A DNA stretch of 64,000 bases from Meiothermus ruber DSM 1279 (lineage in GTDB: Bacteria > Deinococcota > Deinococci > Deinococcales > Thermaceae): positions 1,488,001 through 1,552,000 of the forward strand of contig NC_013946.1 of the NCBI RefSeq assembly GCF_000024425.1, in the 5' to 3' direction. Below are positions 9,138 through 34,565 of this stretch, piece by piece; the first letter of the stretch is position 1; each line of letters begins with the position of its first letter. Below the pieces are notes generated by a model. The model had not been told where the DNA came from, ran no database searches, and saw nothing but the letters and a program-made list of their open reading frames with translations. The translations under genes were made by a program, and so were the position numbers.

Positions 9138-9530
9138 CTAGGGGTGGGGATCAAGGCACTGGGTGCACCGGCCATATAGCACAATTTCGTGGCGCTCGGT
9201 TTTGAAGCCCTGGGGCGCCATAAACGAGAAGTCCCCTGGACAGCCCTCGAGCTCGAAGACCTTGCCACAGCGTGTGCAATGGAAGTGATGGTGGTGTTTT
9301 TTGCCAGATAGCTCGTAGCGCGGGGCCTCACCGGGGAGTTCAACCGGGATCGCGCTGCCCTCTTCGACCAAACCCTTCAGGGTGCGATAGACGGTTGCGA
9401 TGCCCAGGCCGGGCACCTTGTGCCGGGCGGCCTCGAGCACCTCGGAGGGGGAGAGCGGTCGGTTGAGCTCTTGCATCACCTGACGGATGGCCTGCCGCTG
9501 GCGTGTGGAGCGCTCCATACTCTTCAGCAT
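9138..9530 (-). CDS. Fur-family metal-responsive repressor, probably Zur
   Basis: About 130 residues, with the Fur winged helix (SPSEVLEAARHK...GIATVYRTLKGLVEEG), the metal-site run KKHHHHFHC and two CxxC pairs (CTRC, CTQC) for structural zinc. The ATG at 9530 has AAGAGG ten bases upstream; 9551 would start inside the operator and 9518 has no spaced ribosome site. The divergent neighbour is a zinc-binding protein, and a palindromic operator lies between them, so zinc sensing is the best guess over iron. Autoregulation is likely because the operator covers its own start region. Confidence 0.85.
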   Translation of the reverse strand: MLKSMERSTRQRQAIRQVMQELNRPLSPSEVLEAARHKVPGLGIATVYRTLKGLVEEGSAIPVELPGEAPRYELSGKKHHHHFHCTRCGKVFELEGCPGDFSFMAPQGFKTERHEIVLYGRCTQCLDPHP

Positions 9531-9548
9531 AGCAGATGGGCCTCTTGA

Positions 9549-9574
9549 CATAATGATAATGGGTTATCATTATG
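9549..9574. promoter_or_regulatory. Fur/Zur-type operator
   Basis: A perfect inverted repeat with 11-bp arms (CATAATGATAA and TTATCATTATG) and a 4-base centre. The ATAATGATAA arm is typical of Fur/Zur boxes. It lies just upstream of the Fur-family gene and about 160 bases upstream of znuA. Confidence 0.88.
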
Positions 9575-24660: not shown

Positions 24661-25641
24661 CTAGACTCCCATCCAGGCATCAAACCTGGCCTCGTCCCAC
24701 TCGGAAAGCTCGAGCATCCGCACCCCTTTGGGCAGTTGGGCGGGGTCGGCGGTAATCCGGTAATCGGTAAAGCTGCGCGGGGGCCTGCCCTCGTCCAGCC
24801 GCTCCACCGAGACCACCTGCCCCAGCTCGAGCAGCCGGTGTGCAGGCGCACAGCCCAGCCGGGCCTGGCGCCGGTTCTGCTCGGCGTTATTGGGGTCGCC
24901 GTTGCCCACATGTTTGAACAGGTACAGGCGGCGGGTGGCCATATGGCCCTTGCTGGCGCTGCGGTCGTGCTCGAACATGTTCATCAGGGCTTCCACCAGC
25001 AGCTTGAGGTCGGCCTCGCTGAAGCCGGTTTGCTCGGCCAGGTGCGCGCTGATGAAACCTTTAGCCATATATAGCCCGTAGGACACCTGGCTTTTGCGCC
25101 CCATGGTGCGCAGCTTGTCCTCGGGCTGCTCGGCCTCCCAGCGCAGATAGTCTTCCAGGGTTTTGGCGTTTTTAACATCCTCGGCCACCGCCCCACGGGT
25201 AATGCTGAACTCCGCCGGAAAGATGGGGTCGAGGCTCCGGGCGAAGGTGATCTGCACCGGCCCTCGCACCTGCCCGGCGTTGGCCCCGGTGCTCATCACC
25301 GCGCCAAAGGTGCGCACGTCGAAGAACTGCTCACACATCCAGCGCCGCGCGGCCTCTACTTTGTCTTTGGTCTTGCTTCCGGTAAAGCCACCCTGGCTTT
25401 TTACGTGGGCCTCGAAGATGGGGCGGTTCAGGTTGGTGCTGTGCTGCACGAAGATGCTGGCCCCAGCGATCTGGGCATAGTTGCGAACGCGCCGCTTCAG
25501 GGCCACGTCGCTCACCAGACCGTGGCCGTCCTCGGGGTCGATGCGCGGGGCGTTGCCACTGTCGGGGTCGCCGTTGGGGTTGCCGTCCTTAACGTCAAAA
25601 AACAGCAGGAACTCGTAGCGGTTTTGGATGGGCTGGGACAT
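24661..25641 (-). CDS. cas7c: Type I-C Cascade backbone Cas7c (Csd2)
   Basis: 326 residues, starting [20 protein letters not shown] with the [19 protein letters not shown] loop characteristic of Csd2, and [21 protein letters not shown]-type text near residue 110. It forms the multi-copy crRNA backbone. A strong ribosome site (AGGAGG) precedes the ATG, directly after the degenerate CRISPR repeat at 25663-25699; this arrangement may favour high Cas7 output. Confidence 0.96.
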
Positions 25642-25662
25642 CTAGGGCCTCCTTATTCCTGG

Positions 25663-25699
25663 GTTTCAATACCCACTCGATCTTTTGCCTGAGTGCACC
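25663..25699 (-). repeat. Solitary degenerate CRISPR repeat inside the cas operon
   Basis: A 37-bp element in the 59-base gap between cas8c and cas7c matches the array repeat at 30 of 37 positions and has the same orientation as the operon mRNA. The outer stem (CACTC / GAGTG) and the last eight bases of the handle (ATTGAAAC) are intact; the inner stem and the GATA loop have decayed (AAAA loop). The 21 bases that follow it are the cas7c leader with AGGAGG. It could be a Cas5c cut site in the mRNA, a pseudo-crRNA, or an old array remnant. Confidence 0.85.
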
Positions 25700-25700
25700 G

Positions 25701-27560
25701 CTAGGGTGCTGAAGGGGCTTGGGTTTGGGGGGTTTCCTTCTTGCGGCTGGCGGCCATCTGCTGGTAGTAGCCCAGGGCAAACAGGCTCTGCTCTTCCAGG
25801 CTCAGGGTGCGCGGCAGGTTTTTGCCCAGGGCTTTCCAGACCTCGGCGAGCTGGGTGTTGAACCAGTAGGCCAGGCCCGGTGCGTCTTTAGCCATCTTGG
25901 CCAGGTGGTGCTGCGAGAGCCGGGTCAGCCGACCCAGCACCAGCGAGGGGGTGCTGGAGGCAGCCCCGTAGTAGCGCTGGATCACCCCGGCGTTGATCTC
26001 GGACTCGCTGGCGGCCTCCTGAATCTGGGCCAGGAGGCACATCAAACGGCCACAGTGGTAGGCCGGGCTGGGGTGGCTTAGGTCGAGTTCTGCGCTCATC
26101 CGGTAACCTCCTTTGCGGTTGTGGTAGGCCTTCAGAAGCCCCATGCGGGCGTAGATGCGCCCCAGGGCAGCGGCGTCGGGTTTCTGAGCCTTCAAGGCTT
26201 CAGTAAAAGCCCCGGTCATCACCTCGGCGGTGTGGGTCTCCATGATTTTGGCGACCGCTGCGTAGGGGATGGGCAGGCGGGGGTTGAGGGCGGCCCGCCA
26301 GAGGGGGGTTTGGAGCTGTTTGATGGGTTTGAGGTAGTCGTCGAAGTTTTGCTCGGGGGTCTTGGGCCGCTGGAGGCTGAGGAAGAGCCGGTTGAGGCCC
26401 GGCAGGCTGGCCGGCCCCTGGCCGTCGCGCCGCACGATGGCGAGGTCGGTGAACCAGGCCTCCACTGCGGCGACAAAGTCCTCGAGCTGCCCCATCTGCC
26501 AGTCGCGCAACATCACCCGGCCCGAGGCTGGGCTCATGGCGGCAGCAAAAAAGCGGGCGCTGCGGAGTTCGGGCGGGGCCTGGCCAGTTCGGAGGGCCTG
26601 CAAAACCTGGTGGGCGCGCTCGAGGGCCTGTAGCTCCTGGGCCTCGTCTGTTACAGGCGCGAAGAGGTCTTTGAAGAAGTCGTCTTCTTTTGGAATTTCC
26701 CGATCGTACCAGACCACCACCTTCATCTCGCCCAGGGTCTCGGCTTTCTCCAGCAAAGCATCCAGCCCGGCCCGGTAGGCATTGGCGGCCTGCTCCTCCA
26801 CCGCGGCGTTCTCCCCCTGCGAGAGACCATAGGACTCGAAAGCCTCCTTGTCGTAGGTGACCAGGGCGTGCCCGAAGGCGCTCCCGCCCAGCCTGGTCAC
26901 CTTGGGGTGGGTGGAGGCCGGGGTTACCAGCGCACCGCTGGCAAACGAGGGCATGCGCCCCTCCGCGTCTGGCTTGGGAAAAGCCTGGGCCCTGAAGCGC
27001 CGCCACCAGTCACGCCAGTCGGGAAAGTCCAGCACGCACTGGCCCTGAAGCCAAAAGGAGACTTTGTCGGTGGGTTTGAGCTTTTCGGCCCCTTTTTTCT
27101 GGGTCTGGGCCTCGAGCTTCTGCAAAATTAGCTGCATCTGCGCTGGGTCGGACAGGGCCTGGGCAATGGGCTTTAGAAGCGGTACGTCGTTGGCGGCAAG
27201 CTGAATCAGCAGGCGGAAGGTGGCCTGTTTTTGCAGGTTCTTGGCGTGCTCATCGGGCCTCTTAACCTGGCCGTTAGCGTCCCGCTCGGCCAGGCCAAAC
27301 ACCACCGCGCAGGTATCGGCCAGAAAGTGGGCGGCCTGCTCCACCGGGTGTCCCTGGCCCCGCAGGTAGCCGGGAAGGCTCATCATATCGGGCTGGGAAA
27401 GGTCGGGCGCGGTTTTGGCCTGGTTTTCCAGCGGAATCAGCTCGGTGAAGGCCCCCTGCGGGCTTACCCCCACCAGCCAGCGGATTTCTTTGGTGGTAAA
27501 GCCCGGCTCGGCCAGCAACCCTTTCTGCTGGGTGTACGAGACCAACTGCGAAAGCATCAT
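25701..27560 (-). CDS. cas8c: Type I-C large subunit Cas8c (Csd1)
   Basis: 619 residues, a typical Csd1. It starts [16 protein letters not shown] and contains LWYDRE-like [15 protein letters not shown] near residue 285 and the late [15 protein letters not shown]-like region. It recognises the PAM and recruits Cas3; in I-C systems an internal start can also give the small subunit Cas11c, and in-frame methionines in the last third would allow this, although no clear internal ribosome site was identified. It overlaps cas5c in an ATGA. Confidence 0.95.
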
Positions 27561-28300
27561 CCACCCCCTTTGCGAACCTGTGGGCTTTCGTAGGGGGGCA
27601 CCTCGAGCACCCCCTGCACCACCTCGGCCTCGAACAGGCTGATGCTCGGTTTCTCGCCGCGGTCGGTGCGCAGCGGGCGACCTGGGTGCGAGAGGTCGAA
27701 GACGTCGTAGAGCATCCAGCCGATTTTTTCGTTGTAGGGTACCGGGGCGGCCCCTTCATCCTCGACCAGCCGGAAATAGCCGGTAAACTCGCGGCAGCCC
27801 AGGTAGGGCTGGTAGATGCACTGGCCGGCCCGGGCCCGCCTTTGAAAACTCTGCTCGATTTTTTGCCGCAAAGCGGGGTCTTCGCGGTAGAGCACGGCCT
27901 GGGCGGTCAGGCGGTAGCGCACGTTTTTAAGGGCCATGGTCTGGCGCTGGGTGCGGCCCTTGGTGTCCTGGCCGGTATCATCCTTGGTGGCGTCGGCGTA
28001 CAGGGGCTCAAAGCTGCCGGGGTCTTTCATCCAGGCCTGGATGTTGCGCACGCTGGCCTTCTCCTTGACCTCGTTGCGCATCAGGCTGATGTAGCGCACC
28101 GGGCTCAGCACCTCGATGCGGCGCACCTGCCAGTACATCAGGGGCGTTTTATGCTGGGGGTCGAAGTCGAGGTAAATGGCATCGAAGATACCCCGCGCCG
28201 CACTGGGGGTGATGATGGGGTAGCTAAAGCGCTCCACCTTGAACTCGGGCCGGGTAAAACAGGCCAGCTCACCCCAGACTTCCAACTGAAAACTTCGCAT
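27557..28300 (-). CDS. cas5c: Type I-C crRNA endoribonuclease Cas5c (Csd5)
   Basis: 247 residues, starting [20 protein letters not shown]. In I-C this Cas5 replaces Cas6 and cuts at the 3' base of the repeat stem to leave an 11-nt 5' handle; the repeats here have exactly 11 bases (AGGATTGAAAC) after the predicted stem. A Tyr at residue 43 (FDAIYLDF) is in the region of the known catalytic Tyr. It is probably the only pre-crRNA processing enzyme in the locus, so it should supply both Cascade and Cmr. The start is 11 bases after cas3 ends. Confidence 0.94.
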
Positions 28301-28311
28301 CCAACCTCCTT

Positions 28312-31300
28312 TCAGACCACCAGCCCCACCGAGGCCCCATCCTGGGGGGTGAAGCCCAGGCGGGCGTCGTAGAGCGCGGGGTCGGCAGAGAGAAACCAGT
28401 CCGGAGCCTCGCCCCGCCCATAGCGCAGGAAGACCGTCTCCAGGAAGGGCGGGGGGCCATCTTTGGGCAGGAAGTAGGGCACGGTGTAGGGCCGGGCCCG
28501 GTGAATCCAGGCTGCGGAAATGCCGTGGTCGCGGGCCTCCTGCATCAGGGCCAGGGCTTCGTCGTTATAGGGCACCACCACGTTTACCGCCACCGACTCG
28601 ATGATCCGGTAGCGCCGGGCCAGCTCGGTGTAGTTCTGGGTCTGAATCAAGGCCTCGATCGCAGGGTCGCTCACCTGCTGGAGCGCGTAGAGGCTCTGGT
28701 AGTAACGGCGGAAGGTGGTGGGCTCGAGGGTGAGCGGCCCCTCGGCCTGCAAGGCGCGGGTCAGGGCGGCGGCCCGGCCATAGGCCCGGTCGGGGTAGGC
28801 TTCCTCCTGGGGCAGGAAGACCACCAGCCGGCCTTGCGGGCGCAGGCCGTGCCGGTTGATGCGCCCAGCGGTCTGGGCGATGGCCTCGAGCGGCCCCAAA
28901 GCGCGGTAGCCCGCCGGGAAGTCCAGCTCCACCCCGGCCTCCACCACCTGGGTAGCTACCAAGCGGCAGGGCTGGCCCTGCTCTAAGCGGCGCTGTACCT
29001 CCTCGAGCACCCTTCGCCGGTGGGCCGGGCACAGGGCGGTGGACAGGTGGTAGAGCCCCTCGAGGTTGCGCGCCTGGGACTCCTGGAACAGCGCGTAGGC
29101 CTGGCGCTTGAGGTTGAGCACCGCCAGCACCTGCGGCTCGGCCTCCAGCAGGGTAGCCAGATGGGGCCAGGGGATGGGGTTTTTCAACCACCACTCGAGT
29201 TCTACCCGCCGGCTCTGGGCAAAAAGCCGCTCGGGCTCCGGCACCATCTCCACCGGCTGCCAGCCCTGGGGCTCGCCGCGCTGGATCTGCTCGTGCAGGG
29301 TGTCGAAGGCGGGCTGGGTGGCGGTGGCGAACACCACCACCGCGCCGTACTTTTGGCTGGCTAGGCGGGCCAGGGTTTTGAGGGTGGGCACGGCCAGGTG
29401 GGTGGGCAGGGTCTGCACCTCGTCGAAAAGCAGCACGCTACCCGCCAGGTTGTGCAGCTTGCGGCAGGCCCCAGGGCGGTTGGCGTGCAGGCTTTCCAGA
29501 AGCTGCACGTGGGTGGTGAGGACGATGGGGGCCTCCCAGTTTTCGCTCAAGAGGCGGCGTTCGCGCTCCTGCAAGTCCTGCTCGTCGGAGAGTTCTCTGG
29601 AGAGGGGCCGGTAGGCCAGGCTGTGGTCTTCCAGGATGTAATGGGGCCCGAAGTCGGCGAACAGCTCGCGGTAGACTTTGGCGGTCTGGTCGAGGATGGA
29701 AAGATAGGGCAGCACCACCACAATCCGGCGTATGCGGGGGTCGCGCGCGGCCCGCCGCAGGGCGAAGCGCAGCATGGCCAGGGTCTTGCCCAGGCCGGTG
29801 GGGGCGGTGAGGGTGAAGACCGAGGCGGCCTGCTCTGCCGCGCTCGCCGCGGCCTCGGCCACAACCCTGCGCAGTTCGAGCGTTTTCTGGGGGATGTGGC
29901 CTGCCTGGCTAAGCTGGGCCAGGTGGGCCTCGAGGCGCTCGAGGGCCTCCCTGGCCCGCAACTCCGGGGGTGCAGGACGGGCTTCAGGGCCTTTGATGTG
30001 GGCCTCGGTGTCCAGAAAATCGGCGTCCACCAGGGCCGAGAAGAGCATGCGGGTATCCAGCATGGCAGCTGCCCCCGCCGGGGGGGAGATGCGGGTCTGG
30101 CTGGGCGGGGGCAGCTCGAGGCCATCCTTCTGCAGGCGGGCTTTGAGCACCTCGAGGTCGGTCTCGCTCAGCCGCAGTTCGGGCGGAACACCCTTTCCGT
30201 CCTCGCGTAGCTTCATCTCCATCAGGCTTTCCCTGGCCCCGCTTTGCAGCCCGATGTGGTGGCCCTGTACGGCCAGGGCCACCGCGGGCTGGCGGTACTC
30301 GAACAAGGCCAGGTGGGCCCCCGCCGACCAGTGGTCGAGGCCTTTTTCCCTGCCCTCGAGTCGGCGCTGGAAAAGGTCGCCGTACTTGCCCAGGTCGTGC
30401 AGGCGGCCCGCCAGCCGCGCGTTTTCTTCCTCGCCAAAGGGCCGGGCCTTGGCCGCCGCCCGCTCGGCCACCTGGTGCAGGTGTTCCCGCAGGGGCTGCC
30501 AGCGGGCGGGGTTGGGGTGGGTGTGGGCCCAGTAGGTTCTGAAAGCCAGGCCGGGCTGCCCGTACTGCTCGAGCACCGCCCGCGCCTCGGCCAGCCAGGC
30601 CTGCCGCAGGCTTTCCGGCTCCAGCACCTCCACCCTGGGCCCCCAGCTCTGAATCCAGGGTAGCAGCTCGAGGGGGAATCCTTCGGTATCGGTGCCAACG
30701 GTAATTTGAACGAGAGTGCTACCACCCTCGAGCTGCTCAAGGATCTGCAGGTTGGGGTAACCCCCCTCCCGGATGCGCTCGCTGGCCTCCGGGTTGAAGC
30801 GCAGCCGCACCCGCATGGGCGGCTCGCTGCGCACGATGCCCCAGGCGCTGGAAAGGTACTGGCTGGGGTCGAAGTCGTCGGGAATGGTGTAGGTTTCGTC
30901 CAGCAGGCGCGGGCGCTGGATGCGCTCGAGCTTGTAGGTTTTGAGGTTCTCGAGGTAGTGCAAACCCCGGCCATACAGGCGGTCTTTGCCGATCACATAA
31001 ACTGCCATATTGGCCCTGGACACCTCGATGAAGTAGGTCTCGAGTTCGACCCGGATGACCCGCGCCTGGGGAAGGCGGTACTCAAAGGCCACCACCTGCT
31101 GGTTGAGCCAGCCCTGGGTGAGGGTCTCGAGGTTGGCCCCGCTCAGGCTGGGGGGGCGCTGGTTCAGGGCCTCGGTGCTGCGCAGGGCGATGCTGCGCAG
31201 GGGCTCCGGCAGGCTTCTTGCCAGCTTGCGCAGCGACTCCTGGTAGGCTTTGTTGCTGCCGGGCGCGTGATGGGCCAGCATGCGCAAGGCCGCATGGGCC

Positions 31301-31548
31301 ACCACCGTCTCGGTAAGGCTCAGCCGCTCCCGCACCTCGACCCAGTAGAGGCCCCGCAGCCGGTCGTGCCGGAACTCGAGCCCCAGCCGCTCGGCCAGGG
31401 CCTGGGCCTCGAGCAGGTAGTCGAAAATGGCCCGCTCGCCCAGACCCAGCTCCCGGCGCAGTTCGTGGGGCCGCCAGGCTTTCTGCTCGAGCAGCTCCAA
31501 CAGTCGGAGCAGCCTGTGGGCTTTGTTTTGGTGGTACGTTGCTTCCAT
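28312..31548 (-). CDS. cas3: WYL-type regulator fused to Cas3 nuclease-helicase
   Basis: A single uninterrupted frame of 1078 residues. Residues about 1-70 form an HTH (HELRRELGLGERAIFDYLLE), about 150-215 a WYL-like domain (NMAVYVIGKDRLYG ... YKLERIQRP) and about 240-325 a WCX-like C-terminal extension: together the layout of a WYL transcription factor. Cas3 starts at about residue 336 (FRTYWAHTHPNP). It has the HD nuclease (LHDLGKYG, His384-Asp385; AVQGHHIGL), Walker A TAPTGLGKT (581-589), DEVQ (709-712), FATATQPAF, and motif VI QTAGRINRHG. Ordinary I-C Cas3 is about 740-800 residues. The first cas gene of the operon, it may control its own promoter. Confidence 0.93.
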   Translation of the reverse strand: MEATYHQNKAHRLLRLLELLEQKAWRPHELRRELGLGERAIFDYLLEAQALAERLGLEFRHDRLRGLYWVEVRERLSLTETVVAHAALRMLAHHAPGSNKAYQESLRKLARSLPEPLRSIALRSTEALNQRPPSLSGANLETLTQGWLNQQVVAFEYRLPQARVIRVELETYFIEVSRANMAVYVIGKDRLYGRGLHYLENLKTYKLERIQRPRLLDETYTIPDDFDPSQYLSSAWGIVRSEPPMRVRLRFNPEASERIREGGYPNLQILEQLEGGSTLVQITVGTDTEGFPLELLPWIQSWGPRVEVLEPESLRQAWLAEARAVLEQYGQPGLAFRTYWAHTHPNPARWQPLREHLHQVAERAAAKARPFGEEENARLAGRLHDLGKYGDLFQRRLEGREKGLDHWSAGAHLALFEYRQPAVALAVQGHHIGLQSGARESLMEMKLREDGKGVPPELRLSETDLEVLKARLQKDGLELPPPSQTRISPPAGAAAMLDTRMLFSALVDADFLDTEAHIKGPEARPAPPELRAREALERLEAHLAQLSQAGHIPQKTLELRRVVAEAAASAAEQAASVFTLTAPTGLGKTLAMLRFALRRAARDPRIRRIVVVLPYLSILDQTAKVYRELFADFGPHYILEDHSLAYRPLSRELSDEQDLQERERRLLSENWEAPIVLTTHVQLLESLHANRPGACRKLHNLAGSVLLFDEVQTLPTHLAVPTLKTLARLASQKYGAVVVFATATQPAFDTLHEQIQRGEPQGWQPVEMVPEPERLFAQSRRVELEWWLKNPIPWPHLATLLEAEPQVLAVLNLKRQAYALFQESQARNLEGLYHLSTALCPAHRRRVLEEVQRRLEQGQPCRLVATQVVEAGVELDFPAGYRALGPLEAIAQTAGRINRHGLRPQGRLVVFLPQEEAYPDRAYGRAAALTRALQAEGPLTLEPTTFRRYYQSLYALQQVSDPAIEALIQTQNYTELARRYRIIESVAVNVVVPYNDEALALMQEARDHGISAAWIHRARPYTVPYFLPKDGPPPFLETVFLRYGRGEAPDWFLSADPALYDARLGFTPQDGASVGLVV

Positions 31549-31567: not shown

Positions 31568-31588
31568 GGTTTACTAGTAGCGTAAACC
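31568..31588. promoter_or_regulatory. Candidate operator in the cas3 promoter region
   Basis: A perfect inverted repeat, GGTTTAC-7-GTAAACC, lies 20 bases upstream of the cas3 start. A pair of CGTCCAG direct repeats (about 31594-31610) and an AT-rich stretch with TATAAA-11-TTTATA (31637-31659) follow further upstream. The gap 31549-31698 is the only sizeable non-coding space before the cas operon, so its promoter should be here. Ligand and regulator are not shown. Confidence 0.55.
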
Positions 31589-31698
31589 CTGTCGTCCAGC
31601 TCTCGTCCAGGTAGCTTTTTACGCGCTTTGTTGTGTTATAAAACTTGAGTGTGTTTATATCAGGATACAATCCGAGCCTGGGCACTCGTAGGGCCACC

Positions 31699-33291
31699 CT
31701 ATATGACATTCCACTGCTGGCGGTACTCCTCAATCCAGTTGCTGTAGTAGCCCGGCATGAACTCGAGCATCTGCCCCTGGTGGTCGAGGGGGGGCTCGGT
31801 TGGGAAGACCCACTCGCTTTCGGGGTCGAGGGTGTACATCCTCCCAGTGCTGCGCACGCTGTCCTTCCAGCCCAGGGTCAGCCGCAGGGAATTGACCACC
31901 TCCCACAAGGCTTTACGGGGGTTCTTGCCGGGGGTGGCAATCTGATCCAACAAGACCTCGAGGCTGGCCGAGCCGCCTTTAATCAGGAGAAACACCAGTA
32001 ACTCACCAGCCTTGCTCACTGCAGGCAGTGGTACAGCCCGACCGTTGACCCGCACCTCGAGCCGCCCATAGGGGTTCACCTCTACCCGGTAGGTTGCGCG
32101 TACCCTGGGCTGGGCACCCTGTACAGCCGAGGCCAACAAGGGGAAGCAGCTCAGCTCTTCTCTGAACCAAAAGTGGTTGCTTTCCACGGAGGCCAGCCGG
32201 TCTTTGGCCTGGGCCAGGTCGCCTTTGCAGCGCAGCCACTCGGCCTCGAGGATGCCCAGTTGAATCTTCTCCCGATCCCCGAGCGAGATGGAGCGAAGAT
32301 AGGGCAGCTTTTGCTCGAGGTACTCGAGGTGGCCCAGCATCAGGTGGGCCGCGGCAATGTCCAGCTCGATCCAGCGCTCCTCAGGGTTGATCCGGTGGGC
32401 TTGCAACAGCTTAGCCAGACCCTCCTCAACCTGGCCCATAAGACGCAGGGTGTGACCCCAGCCCCACAAGGCCAGTTGGGCATCATCGGCATCGCCCCTG
32501 GCCTTGTAGGCCTCCTGGTAGGCTTGCAAGGCCCGCTGCAACTCGCCGAACATACGCCGCACAATCCCCAGCCCCAGCAAAGCCCGTCCACGAATGCCGT
32601 TGGCCGCTTTTTTCTGGCTTATACGAAGCGCTTCTAAAAAATGCTGCTCGGCCTCTGCAGGCTTATTTTTGAGTAAAAGATAGCCGATGTTGCTATGCGT
32701 CCAGGCCAGATAGTAAGGGTCGTTTTCAAGGTAGATAAGGGCTTCGGCCCAGGTTGCATGGGCTGGTGCGTGCTGGTTACTGCTGTAAAGATGCCAGCCA
32801 TAATCCAGCAACATCCGCCCTAAGGCATGGCCTTGTAGGTGGTTGCGGGCCTGCTCGAAGTAGTGTTGCCACCCGGCCTGCTTGAGCCGGTTTGTCGCCA
32901 TACCCAGGCAGCGGTAGTACAACCCCCTATCGGGTACAGAGGCTTCACAAAGGCTCTGGAGCACCTCCATAGCCTGTTGGTTCTGGTTGAGCTGAAGAAG
33001 GGCCCAGGCCCGATAAAGGTGCAGGCCATCGGCAGGGGTATTGGACTCGAACCAGGCCAGAACATCCTTTGGCTTTCGGGCTCGAGCCAGGGTTTGCAGG
33101 TAGATGCGCTGAAAAACCTGCTCCTGCCGCAAAGGCTCTGGCACACCCTCCAGCAGGCGCAAAAACCTTTCGGTTTGATGATAGGTCTGGTGCTGCTCGT
33201 TGGCGTTTTGTAGCAGTTGCAGGGCCAGATCAGCCCGGCCCTGCTCGGCCAGAGCCTCTAGATTTGCTCCCAGCAGCTCCAGATCCCTCAC
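31699..33291 (-). CDS. TPR protein with C-terminal winged-helix domain, putative regulator
   Basis: 530 residues. Residues about 1-390 are tetratricopeptide-like helices (LGIVRRMFGELQRALQAYQEAYK, and similar). From about residue 395 the pattern is that of an OmpR/PhoB-type or activator-domain winged helix: a beta pair (YGRLEVRVNGRAVPL), then helices SKAGELLVFLLI and RKALWEVVNSLRLTLG, and a wing VRSTGRMYTL. No signal peptide. It lies between array 2 and the cas operon on the cas strand and 45 bases after a small membrane-peptide gene. Large TPR regulators often sense peptides, which makes the pairing interesting. Its role in CRISPR control is inferred from position. Confidence 0.7.
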   Translation of the reverse strand: MRDLELLGANLEALAEQGRADLALQLLQNANEQHQTYHQTERFLRLLEGVPEPLRQEQVFQRIYLQTLARARKPKDVLAWFESNTPADGLHLYRAWALLQLNQNQQAMEVLQSLCEASVPDRGLYYRCLGMATNRLKQAGWQHYFEQARNHLQGHALGRMLLDYGWHLYSSNQHAPAHATWAEALIYLENDPYYLAWTHSNIGYLLLKNKPAEAEQHFLEALRISQKKAANGIRGRALLGLGIVRRMFGELQRALQAYQEAYKARGDADDAQLALWGWGHTLRLMGQVEEGLAKLLQAHRINPEERWIELDIAAAHLMLGHLEYLEQKLPYLRSISLGDREKIQLGILEAEWLRCKGDLAQAKDRLASVESNHFWFREELSCFPLLASAVQGAQPRVRATYRVEVNPYGRLEVRVNGRAVPLPAVSKAGELLVFLLIKGGSASLEVLLDQIATPGKNPRKALWEVVNSLRLTLGWKDSVRSTGRMYTLDPESEWVFPTEPPLDHQGQMLEFMPGYYSNWIEEYRQQWNVI

Positions 33292-33315: not shown

Positions 33316-33337
33316 GGGTGGGCTGCCCAGCCCACCC
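33316..33337 (-). terminator. Hairpin between peptide gene and TPR regulator
   Basis: Perfect 9-bp arms (GGGTGGGCT / AGCCCACCC) with a GCCC loop, overlapping the end of the small gene's stop codon by one base. No T-run follows on either strand, so it may slow or protect the transcript rather than end it. Confidence 0.5.
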
Positions 33338-33486
33338 TAGCCGCCAGCACAACATTTGGGAATGTCGCCAGCAGTTTGCCCCGGCACCGGAGCCGGTGCA
33401 AAGAGGGCCAACCCTCCCAACAACAGAACCAGCGCAACCAACCAGCCGATTTGCTTTTTCCCGAGAGCAGAACGTGTCTTGTTCAT
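33337..33486 (-). CDS. Small single-span membrane or exported peptide, 49 residues
   Basis: An ATG at 33484-33486 with GGAGG four bases upstream opens a 49-codon frame ending in TAG. The product starts basic (MNKTRSALGKKQ), has one hydrophobic helix (IGWLVALVLLLGGLALFA) and ends in a polar tail with PVPGQTAGDIPKCCAGG, including two adjacent Cys. This is the layout of a signal peptide or anchor plus a short exported tail. It is on the same strand as the TPR regulator and directly upstream of it. A palindrome at 33511-33525 precedes it. No family was recognised. The good ribosome site, codon quality and hydrophobic pattern support it; it is below usual gene-calling length. Confidence 0.6.
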   Translation of the reverse strand: MNKTRSALGKKQIGWLVALVLLLGGLALFAPAPVPGQTAGDIPKCCAGG

Positions 33487-33510
33487 GCCCTCCAGCGTCG
33501 GGGCGGGGTA

Positions 33511-33525
33511 TGCACAGTTTGTGCA
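33511..33525. promoter_or_regulatory. Palindromic site upstream of the peptide gene
   Basis: TGCACA-3-TGTGCA, a perfect 15-bp palindrome 25 bases upstream of the small gene's start. It could be an operator for the adjacent TPR regulator. No other evidence. Confidence 0.4.
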
Positions 33526-33554
33526 GGGTGAGGTAATCTAGTGGCTAGGTAACC

Positions 33555-33735
33555 GCGCGAACCCCAAGCAAGTGCCAAAACCCAGGGGGGTTCGCGCAAG
33601 CCGAGAAACTGGCTAGGGGACATTGAAAACCCGCTTTCCCTCCACCTTCCCCCACCCTGCGTCGGAAGCTTTTTTTGGGGGGTTCGCGCAAACGGCCTCT
33701 TGAACCCCGTCCTGCACGCACGCTAGAATGAGGCT
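33555..33735 (+). promoter_or_regulatory. Leader of CRISPR array 2
   Basis: 181 bp next to the first repeat, identical to the inverted leader of array 1 except for one base. It contains GGTTCGCGCAA twice (near 33590 and 33681), an inverted copy at its distal end, and a C/T-rich middle. Transcription should run rightward into the array. Confidence 0.85.
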
Positions 33736-34565
33736 GTTGCACTCGGGCGATAGCTCGAGTGAGGATTGAAACGGCGGCCAGGAGGAGGGCCCCGGCGAGC
33801 GCTTCAGGTTGCACTCGGGCGATAGCTCGAGTGAGGATTGAAACGAAGACGGCCCCCGCGACCCCCCCGATGGCCCCCGTTGCACTCGGGCGATAGCTCG
33901 AGTGAGGATTGAAACTCGAGAGTGGATGGCCCGCTCGTAGAGCGCTCTAGAGGTTGCACTCGGGCGATAGCTCGAGTGAGGATTGAAACCTTCATATATT
34001 CCTCCCTTCTGGCTATAGAATAGGTTGCACTCGGGCGATAGCTCGAGTGAGGATTGAAACCTCAATGACGGACGCAGTGCCGGTTTGGAAGTCAACGGTT
34101 GCACTCGGGCGATAGCTCGAGTGAGGATTGAAACCTCGCCCGTGAGGGTGATGGCCCGCAACAACCCCACGTTGCACTCGGGCGATAGCTCGAGTGAGGA
34201 TTGAAACGCGTAGGTGCAGGCGGCAATCGCCGCCTCCACCGCGTTGCACTCGGGCGATAGCTCGAGTGAGGATTGAAACGGCGAGGGCTTGAACGAGTTC
34301 CTTCATGCGTACGTTGCACTCGGGCGATAGCTCGAGTGAGGATTGAAACTTCGCGGGCGCCGGCGAGGGCGCCGGCCCCCTGACGTTGCACTCGGGCGAT
34401 AGCTCGAGTGAGGATTGAAACTTCACTAAAAAATTTCCGCAACATAGACCCAACAGTGTTGCACTCGGGCGATAGCTCGAGTGAGGATTGAAACCTCAAA
34501 GTTGATGTACACGCGGAAATCTCCTAGGGTTGCACTCGGGCGATAGCTCGAGTGAGGATTGAAAC
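33736..34565 (+). CRISPR. CRISPR array 2: 12 identical repeats, 11 spacers
   Basis: Same 37-bp repeat as array 1, in the opposite orientation. Repeats start at 33736, 33808, 33879, 33953, 34024, 34098, 34171, 34243, 34313, 34385, 34458 and 34529; spacers are 33-37 bp. No spacer is obviously shared with array 1. The last repeat is intact, unlike the decayed terminal repeat of array 1, so the old end may have been lost recently. The array ends 64 bases before the convergent lysS gene. Confidence 0.98.

Follow-up and report, generated by a model that had tools for sequence, protein, structure and literature searches.

The window analysed is a stretch of 64,000 nucleotides from the genome of Meiothermus ruber DSM 1279 (3,097,457 bp). 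A small peptide gene and the gene of a TPR protein lie in it between a CRISPR array and a cas operon, and the features of the locus are as follows (window positions, with the strand in brackets):

24661-28300 (-): cas5c, cas8c and cas7c, which follow cas3 in the type I-C operon, with type III-B cmr genes next (identified in part from the annotation of the orthologous pMESIL01 locus)
28312-31548 (-): HTH-WYL-WCX regulator fused to Cas3 (HD nuclease and helicase), 1078 aa
31579-31584 (-): putative -10 box TACGCT, separated from the 3' repeat by 8 bp
31593-31609 (-): direct repeat TGGACG-N5-TGGACG with an 11-bp period, the predicted site of the TPR protein
31699-33291 (-): TPR protein, 530 aa, GTG start; a TPR region, then a predicted C-terminal OmpR/SARP-type winged helix (residues ~395-500)
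33316-33337 (-): GC-rich hairpin between the peptide stop codon and the TPR gene, a possible partial terminator or attenuator
33337-33486 (-): small peptide gene, 49 aa, with a basic N-terminus, a hydrophobic helix and the tail GDIPKCCAGG: MNKTRSALGKKQIGWLVALVLLLGGLALFAPAPVPGQTAGDIPKCCAGG
33340-33375 (-): conserved tail (last 12 codons), the predicted signal part, delimited from codon changes in relatives and alignment
33487-33735: shared leader/regulatory region of ~250 bp, from the array to the peptide gene
33511-33525 (no strand): 15-bp dyad TGCACAGTTTGTGCA, predicted operator
33736-34565 (+): CRISPR array, diverging from the peptide-TPR-cas transcript, read directly from the sequence and with counterparts at orthologous loci

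The neighbourhood described in the original prediction was found as stated: the TPR gene lies 45 bp downstream of the peptide gene on the same strand, and the palindrome at 33511-33525 precedes the frame. The TPR gene in turn ends 150 bp upstream of the WYL-Cas3 fusion. Because Cas3 carries an N-terminal HTH-WYL-WCX part, the nuclease-helicase could double as a transcription factor.

The peptide gene and its relatives

The frame had been described as a small exported or membrane-type peptide, and its basic start, single hydrophobic stretch (KD17 = 2.58) and tail were confirmed. The ribosome site, claimed to be good, is an SD-like GGAGG upstream of the frame, but the spacing is short (~2 nt). 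The peptide matched nothing in Pfam or PADLOC. Searches with the peptide alone gave clear matches in two close relatives and weak ones elsewhere (E 0.01-5), several of which sit directly 5' of TPR homologs that were recovered by a separate search. When the TPR loci were read in orientation, a frame of 35-64 aa with a hydrophobic core and a common C-terminus was found upstream of almost all of them, and the same layout and tail occur in frames upstream of ~36 homologous TPR genes. These relatives come from Meiothermus, Calidithermus, Allomeiothermus, Deinococcus and other Deinococcota, upstream of a matching TPR gene, with peptide-to-TPR gaps of ~5 to 480 bp and, once, ~890 bp. In Calidithermus roseus (L080:8265-9120), an insertion of ~850 bp (TnpB-like by eye) parts the peptide frame from the TPR gene, and both are open.

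A peptide profile was run against 111 Deinococcota genomes: every match with E < 3.5e-4 was next to a TPR gene, and six of them came from outside the set used to build the profile. A scan of genome contigs with a narrow TPR alignment yielded eight named loci. The matching gene order is also present on Deinococcus plasmids, where the tails include VLANDGAKIGTGGG (D. gobiensis) and VVLAMSDDPTIGGRGLG (D. proteolyticus); the peptide was not found in D. grandis. The peptide frame is unannotated in the plasmid record of Allomeiothermus silvanus.

Two tail types were distinguished: D-x-P-K-[IVL]-G-[TSA]-G-G and D-x-P-K-C-C-x-G-G. The Cys pair to which the original prediction drew attention is present in the window peptide, but it belongs to only one of these types. 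In the last 12 codons, five close pairs of relatives differ by ~16 synonymous changes and one nonsynonymous change, and the part upstream of the tail carries many amino-acid changes in the same pairs. The window gene and that of M. taiwanensis are identical. A sixth pair, the window gene and a more distant copy (G008), was looser, with 3.2 synonymous and 5.8 nonsynonymous differences in the tail, and the tail can therefore diverge between species. By a permissive rule, an SPase-like site was found in 31 of 37 peptides, in relatives with a basic N-terminus and a hydrophobic core. The comparison of small frames upstream of this TPR family, proposed with the original prediction as a check, thus came out in its favour: the frames are conserved across the phylum and their tail is under selection. 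The peptide frame is a genuine, conserved gene that co-occurs with the TPR gene far beyond chance.

The TPR protein, its predicted site and the link to cas genes

The window TPR protein is 92% identical to that of M. taiwanensis DSM 14542. Trans_reg_C was matched by 10 of 17 C-terminal domains of the family (best E 1e-4) and not by the window protein on its own, so that the winged-helix assignment rests on the relatives. Profile matches of the C-terminal domain to PDB entries were CarR, EmbR and AfsR, all weak. Only ~35 residues follow the winged helix, and no match to a BTAD domain was obtained. The C-terminus of the TPR protein resembles OmpR/SARP-type winged helices, and the DNA-binding C-terminus that had been claimed for it is supported through these weak family matches.

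In PADLOC, the window TPR protein was matched over its full length by C3a198 'TPR protein' (PDLC01092, E = 0) and by PDLC01171 'TPR repeats containing protein' (E = 8e-220), which means that the family is already catalogued as defence-linked; the C3a names presumably denote type III CRISPR accessory clusters. These models come with no assigned function, peptide partner or binding site. No phage-borne copies of the TPR gene were found in viral contigs, and in the I-E module of Calidithermus chliarophilus (G022:C7:9737-11077, L092) the gene seems to be broken into two separate pieces. A suggested covariation of TPR residues K228 and Q138 with the tail type (CC versus GT) was set aside, as it had no valid null.

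The original prediction placed a target of the regulator at 31568-31588. This palindrome is not kept beyond the nearest relatives and overlaps the -10 region; it was rejected as a conserved cas3 operator, the conserved element being instead the direct repeat at 31593-31609. A composite site was defined as two KSGAYR half-sites 11 bp apart, with TANNNT 8 or 9 bp further on. Of 38 module loci, 36 have a site scoring at least 13/15 before the WYL gene, against a background of 1.05%. This comparison is partly circular, as the loci themselves supplied the half-site pattern; the -10 spacing and the genome-wide specificity are less affected. At L076 and L081, the best-scoring site differs from the position nearest the gene. 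None of seven Thermus loci with WYL-cas but without the TPR gene has the composite site. In 50 Thermaceae genomes, the exact form TGGAYRN5TGGAYRN8-9TANNNT was counted 21 times, with 16 of these copies at CRISPR WYL genes; it is absent from the 28 Thermus-lineage genomes and from a reversed control; both occurrences in the M. ruber genome are at its CRISPR WYL genes. In one relative (G014, L133:5546-5576), an exact site lies 20 bp 5' of a Wzc-like polysaccharide chain-length frame, a possible non-CRISPR target.

In SARP promoters, the direct repeats are spaced by 11 bp, and 8 bp separate the 3' copy from the -10 box (PMC10936776). The case for activation of the cas promoter by the TPR protein is strongest in this shared geometry combined with the OmpR-like C-terminal domain. 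Support for the promoter link is good, and the TPR protein is likely to bind the direct repeat.

Of 25 Thermaceae peptide genes, 24 have the dyad ~41 bp before their start codon. Its arms covary between groups (CTGCAC..GTGCAG, CGCGCA..TGCGCG, CGCGACA..TGTCGCG), with a mean pairing of 5.96/7 versus 4.61 +/- 0.13 in shuffles. Hairpins like that at 33316-33337 follow the peptide stop codon in many relatives, and such a hairpin could raise the peptide over its receptor or serve a leader-peptide mechanism.

In nearly every region read that has both peptide and TPR gene, these are followed by a WYL gene, which is fused to cas3 (I-C), free before cas3-cse1 (I-E) or, at one locus, placed before a Cst-type I-B operon. 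Two genomes (G002, G003) have the peptide and TPR genes at the array and WYL-Cas3 elsewhere, no WYL gene was found in the stretch read at L090, and in D. aetherius, D. taeanensis and KNUC1210 no cas genes adjoin the peptide-TPR-WYL set. Three loci (L099-L101) hold an intact peptide and a WYL gene without a local TPR gene. That such solo peptides form a separate system was rejected: a WYL gene follows each, and in L099 and L100 I-E cas genes come next. Divergent TPR paralogs (L094, L095, Thermus plasmids) lack both the peptide and the WYL gene. On small Thermus plasmids (L117, L118, L131), divergent TPR relatives were seen with no peptide, WYL or cas gene nearby.

M. ruber itself has an I-E locus (L103 ~9370-9570; G000:C1 near 3,064,400) in which the peptide frame is cut by an in-frame TGA and the local TPR gene is absent, and the direct-repeat site is intact. 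Since the site is kept there without a TPR gene, the I-C TPR protein may act at this locus in trans. The original prediction is partly supported. The tie to CRISPR expression is among the supported parts, complete peptide-TPR modules being nearly always CRISPR/WYL-linked, and it is highly probable that the peptide-TPR-WYL module is a cas regulator.

A proposed peptide-controlled switch and its alternatives

As a whole explanation, we consider a peptide-controlled switch of CRISPR-Cas expression to be reasonably probable. The pro-peptide would enter the Sec pathway or the membrane via its basic-hydrophobic N-terminus, and the C-terminal 9-12 residues (here ~GDIPKCCAGG) would be released as the signal by a cut close to the Ala or Gly that precedes the acidic tail. 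The peptide would be taken up again, for instance through an Opp/Dpp importer (ten SBP_bac_5 peptide-binding proteins were counted in the genome), and the TPR superhelix of the adjacent regulator would bind it. The winged helix would then bind the direct repeat that precedes the WYL(-Cas3) -10 box, a promoter architecture that is present at the locus, and would activate the cas operon; the dyad may be a feedback operator for the WYL or the TPR protein. The peptide is probably the ligand of the TPR protein. In favour of the switch, the amino acids of the tail are kept while the rest of the peptide drifts, related tails are found across the phylum, and in the I-E locus of this genome, from which the TPR gene is gone, the peptide frame has a stop. 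Against the switch, the tail is rather conserved between species, unlike that of many pheromones, and three genomes (L099-L101) have an intact peptide without a local TPR gene.

Alternatively, the peptide might stay in the membrane with its acidic tail outside, as a small envelope or phage-entry sensor or as a short membrane toxin that the module restrains, and the TPR protein would answer another input. A peptide of this size with one hydrophobic helix would suit a small membrane protein, but selection falls on the last 9-12 residues while the helix drifts, an outside tail would be remote from the cytosolic TPR protein, and a membrane toxin should have no need of a tail like this; we regard this as unlikely.

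It is slightly less likely still that the frame encodes a cis-acting leader or arrest peptide in the style of SecM, MifM or VemP. Its hydrophobic N-terminus would contact the membrane machinery and its conserved C-terminus would stall the ribosome, opening the hairpin so that the TPR protein is expressed, and the input would be envelope or Sec stress. A hydrophobic N-terminus with conserved residues by the stop codon, the constant position upstream on the same strand and the strong hairpin after the stop codon in many loci would all suit such a peptide. However, the distance from stop codon to hairpin varies from 1 to >50 nt, and there is no hairpin at L078, L082 and L087. The frame is also intact where the TPR gene is missing (L099-L101) and across the ~850 bp insertion (L080), and two chemically different tails (CC, IGT) occur despite closely related ribosomes.

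It is very improbable that the peptide is a CRISPR accessory factor in its own right and not a ligand, next to TPR and WYL proteins that regulate cas genes in the ordinary way. In Thermus, WYL heads I-E operons without peptide or TPR gene, which shows that the core operon does not depend on the peptide, but the peptide tracks the TPR gene and not CRISPR, being absent from these Thermus I-E genomes and decayed where the local TPR gene is missing in M. ruber.

Known systems and significance

The peptide-controlled switch shares with RRNPP systems (PlcR-PapR, NprR, Rgg-SHP, AimR-AimP) neighbouring genes for a small basic-hydrophobic pro-peptide and a cytosolic TPR regulator, and an informative peptide C-terminus. 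The peptide falls within the RRNPP definition of a small peptide (10-100 aa) next to its receptor (PMC10075063), and the window protein has the TPRs of an RRNPP receptor. The differences are as follows: RRNPP receptors have an N-terminal HTH or 3-helix bundle, whereas here the TPR region is N-terminal and the winged helix C-terminal; their length is 250-500 aa, and 530 aa is slightly outside this range; and RRNPP(A) systems belong to Bacillota, whereas this module has a Deinococcota host and cas operons as its target. The RRNPP-like layout of the original prediction therefore stands as far as the pairing of a peptide with a TPR regulator, but not as membership of the family. A published RRNPP survey covered Firmicutes and viruses and dropped candidates with N-terminal TPRs (PMC10075063). 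The module would work like RRNPP signalling, outside that family.

SARP-type regulators (AfsR, which is SARP-NOD-TPR, and EmbR) are similar in that an OmpR-type winged helix is joined to TPRs and in the 11-bp repeats 8 bp from the -10 box. Unlike in SARP/AfsR, the TPR region comes first here, there is no NOD ATPase and the BTA is at most a short C-terminal remnant; a BTA domain directly after the winged helix, a SARP trait, was not found. The module also differs from SARP, AfsR and EmbR in its link to CRISPR and its pairing with a peptide. WYL proteins as cas regulators and WYL-Cas3 fusions have been described (PMC4012209), in a paper that mentions no peptide-TPR input, conserved promoter, TPR, Thermus or Meiothermus. 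In Serratia, small-molecule quorum sensing tunes several CRISPR types via the SmaR repressor (PMC5179492), whereas here the peptide gene is embedded in the CRISPR locus. The literature searched, which excluded preprints and most subscription papers, held no description of the peptide or the sites.

There is about an even chance that the module is a Deinococcota peptide-pheromone system in CRISPR loci, with a non-RRNPP receptor, that has moved with I-C, I-E and I-B systems and acts as a population switch, in which one TPR protein may drive two loci. The locus supplies candidates for the ligand (the 9-12 residue tail), the receptor, the operator and the target promoter, and bears on what turns CRISPR-Cas on in Deinococcota and on intracellular peptide pheromones with TPR receptors outside Bacillota. 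If confirmed, this would be, as far as the literature searched shows, the first peptide-signalled CRISPR control circuit inside a CRISPR locus, and it suggests that Deinococcota bacteria may switch their adaptive immunity with a peptide signal.
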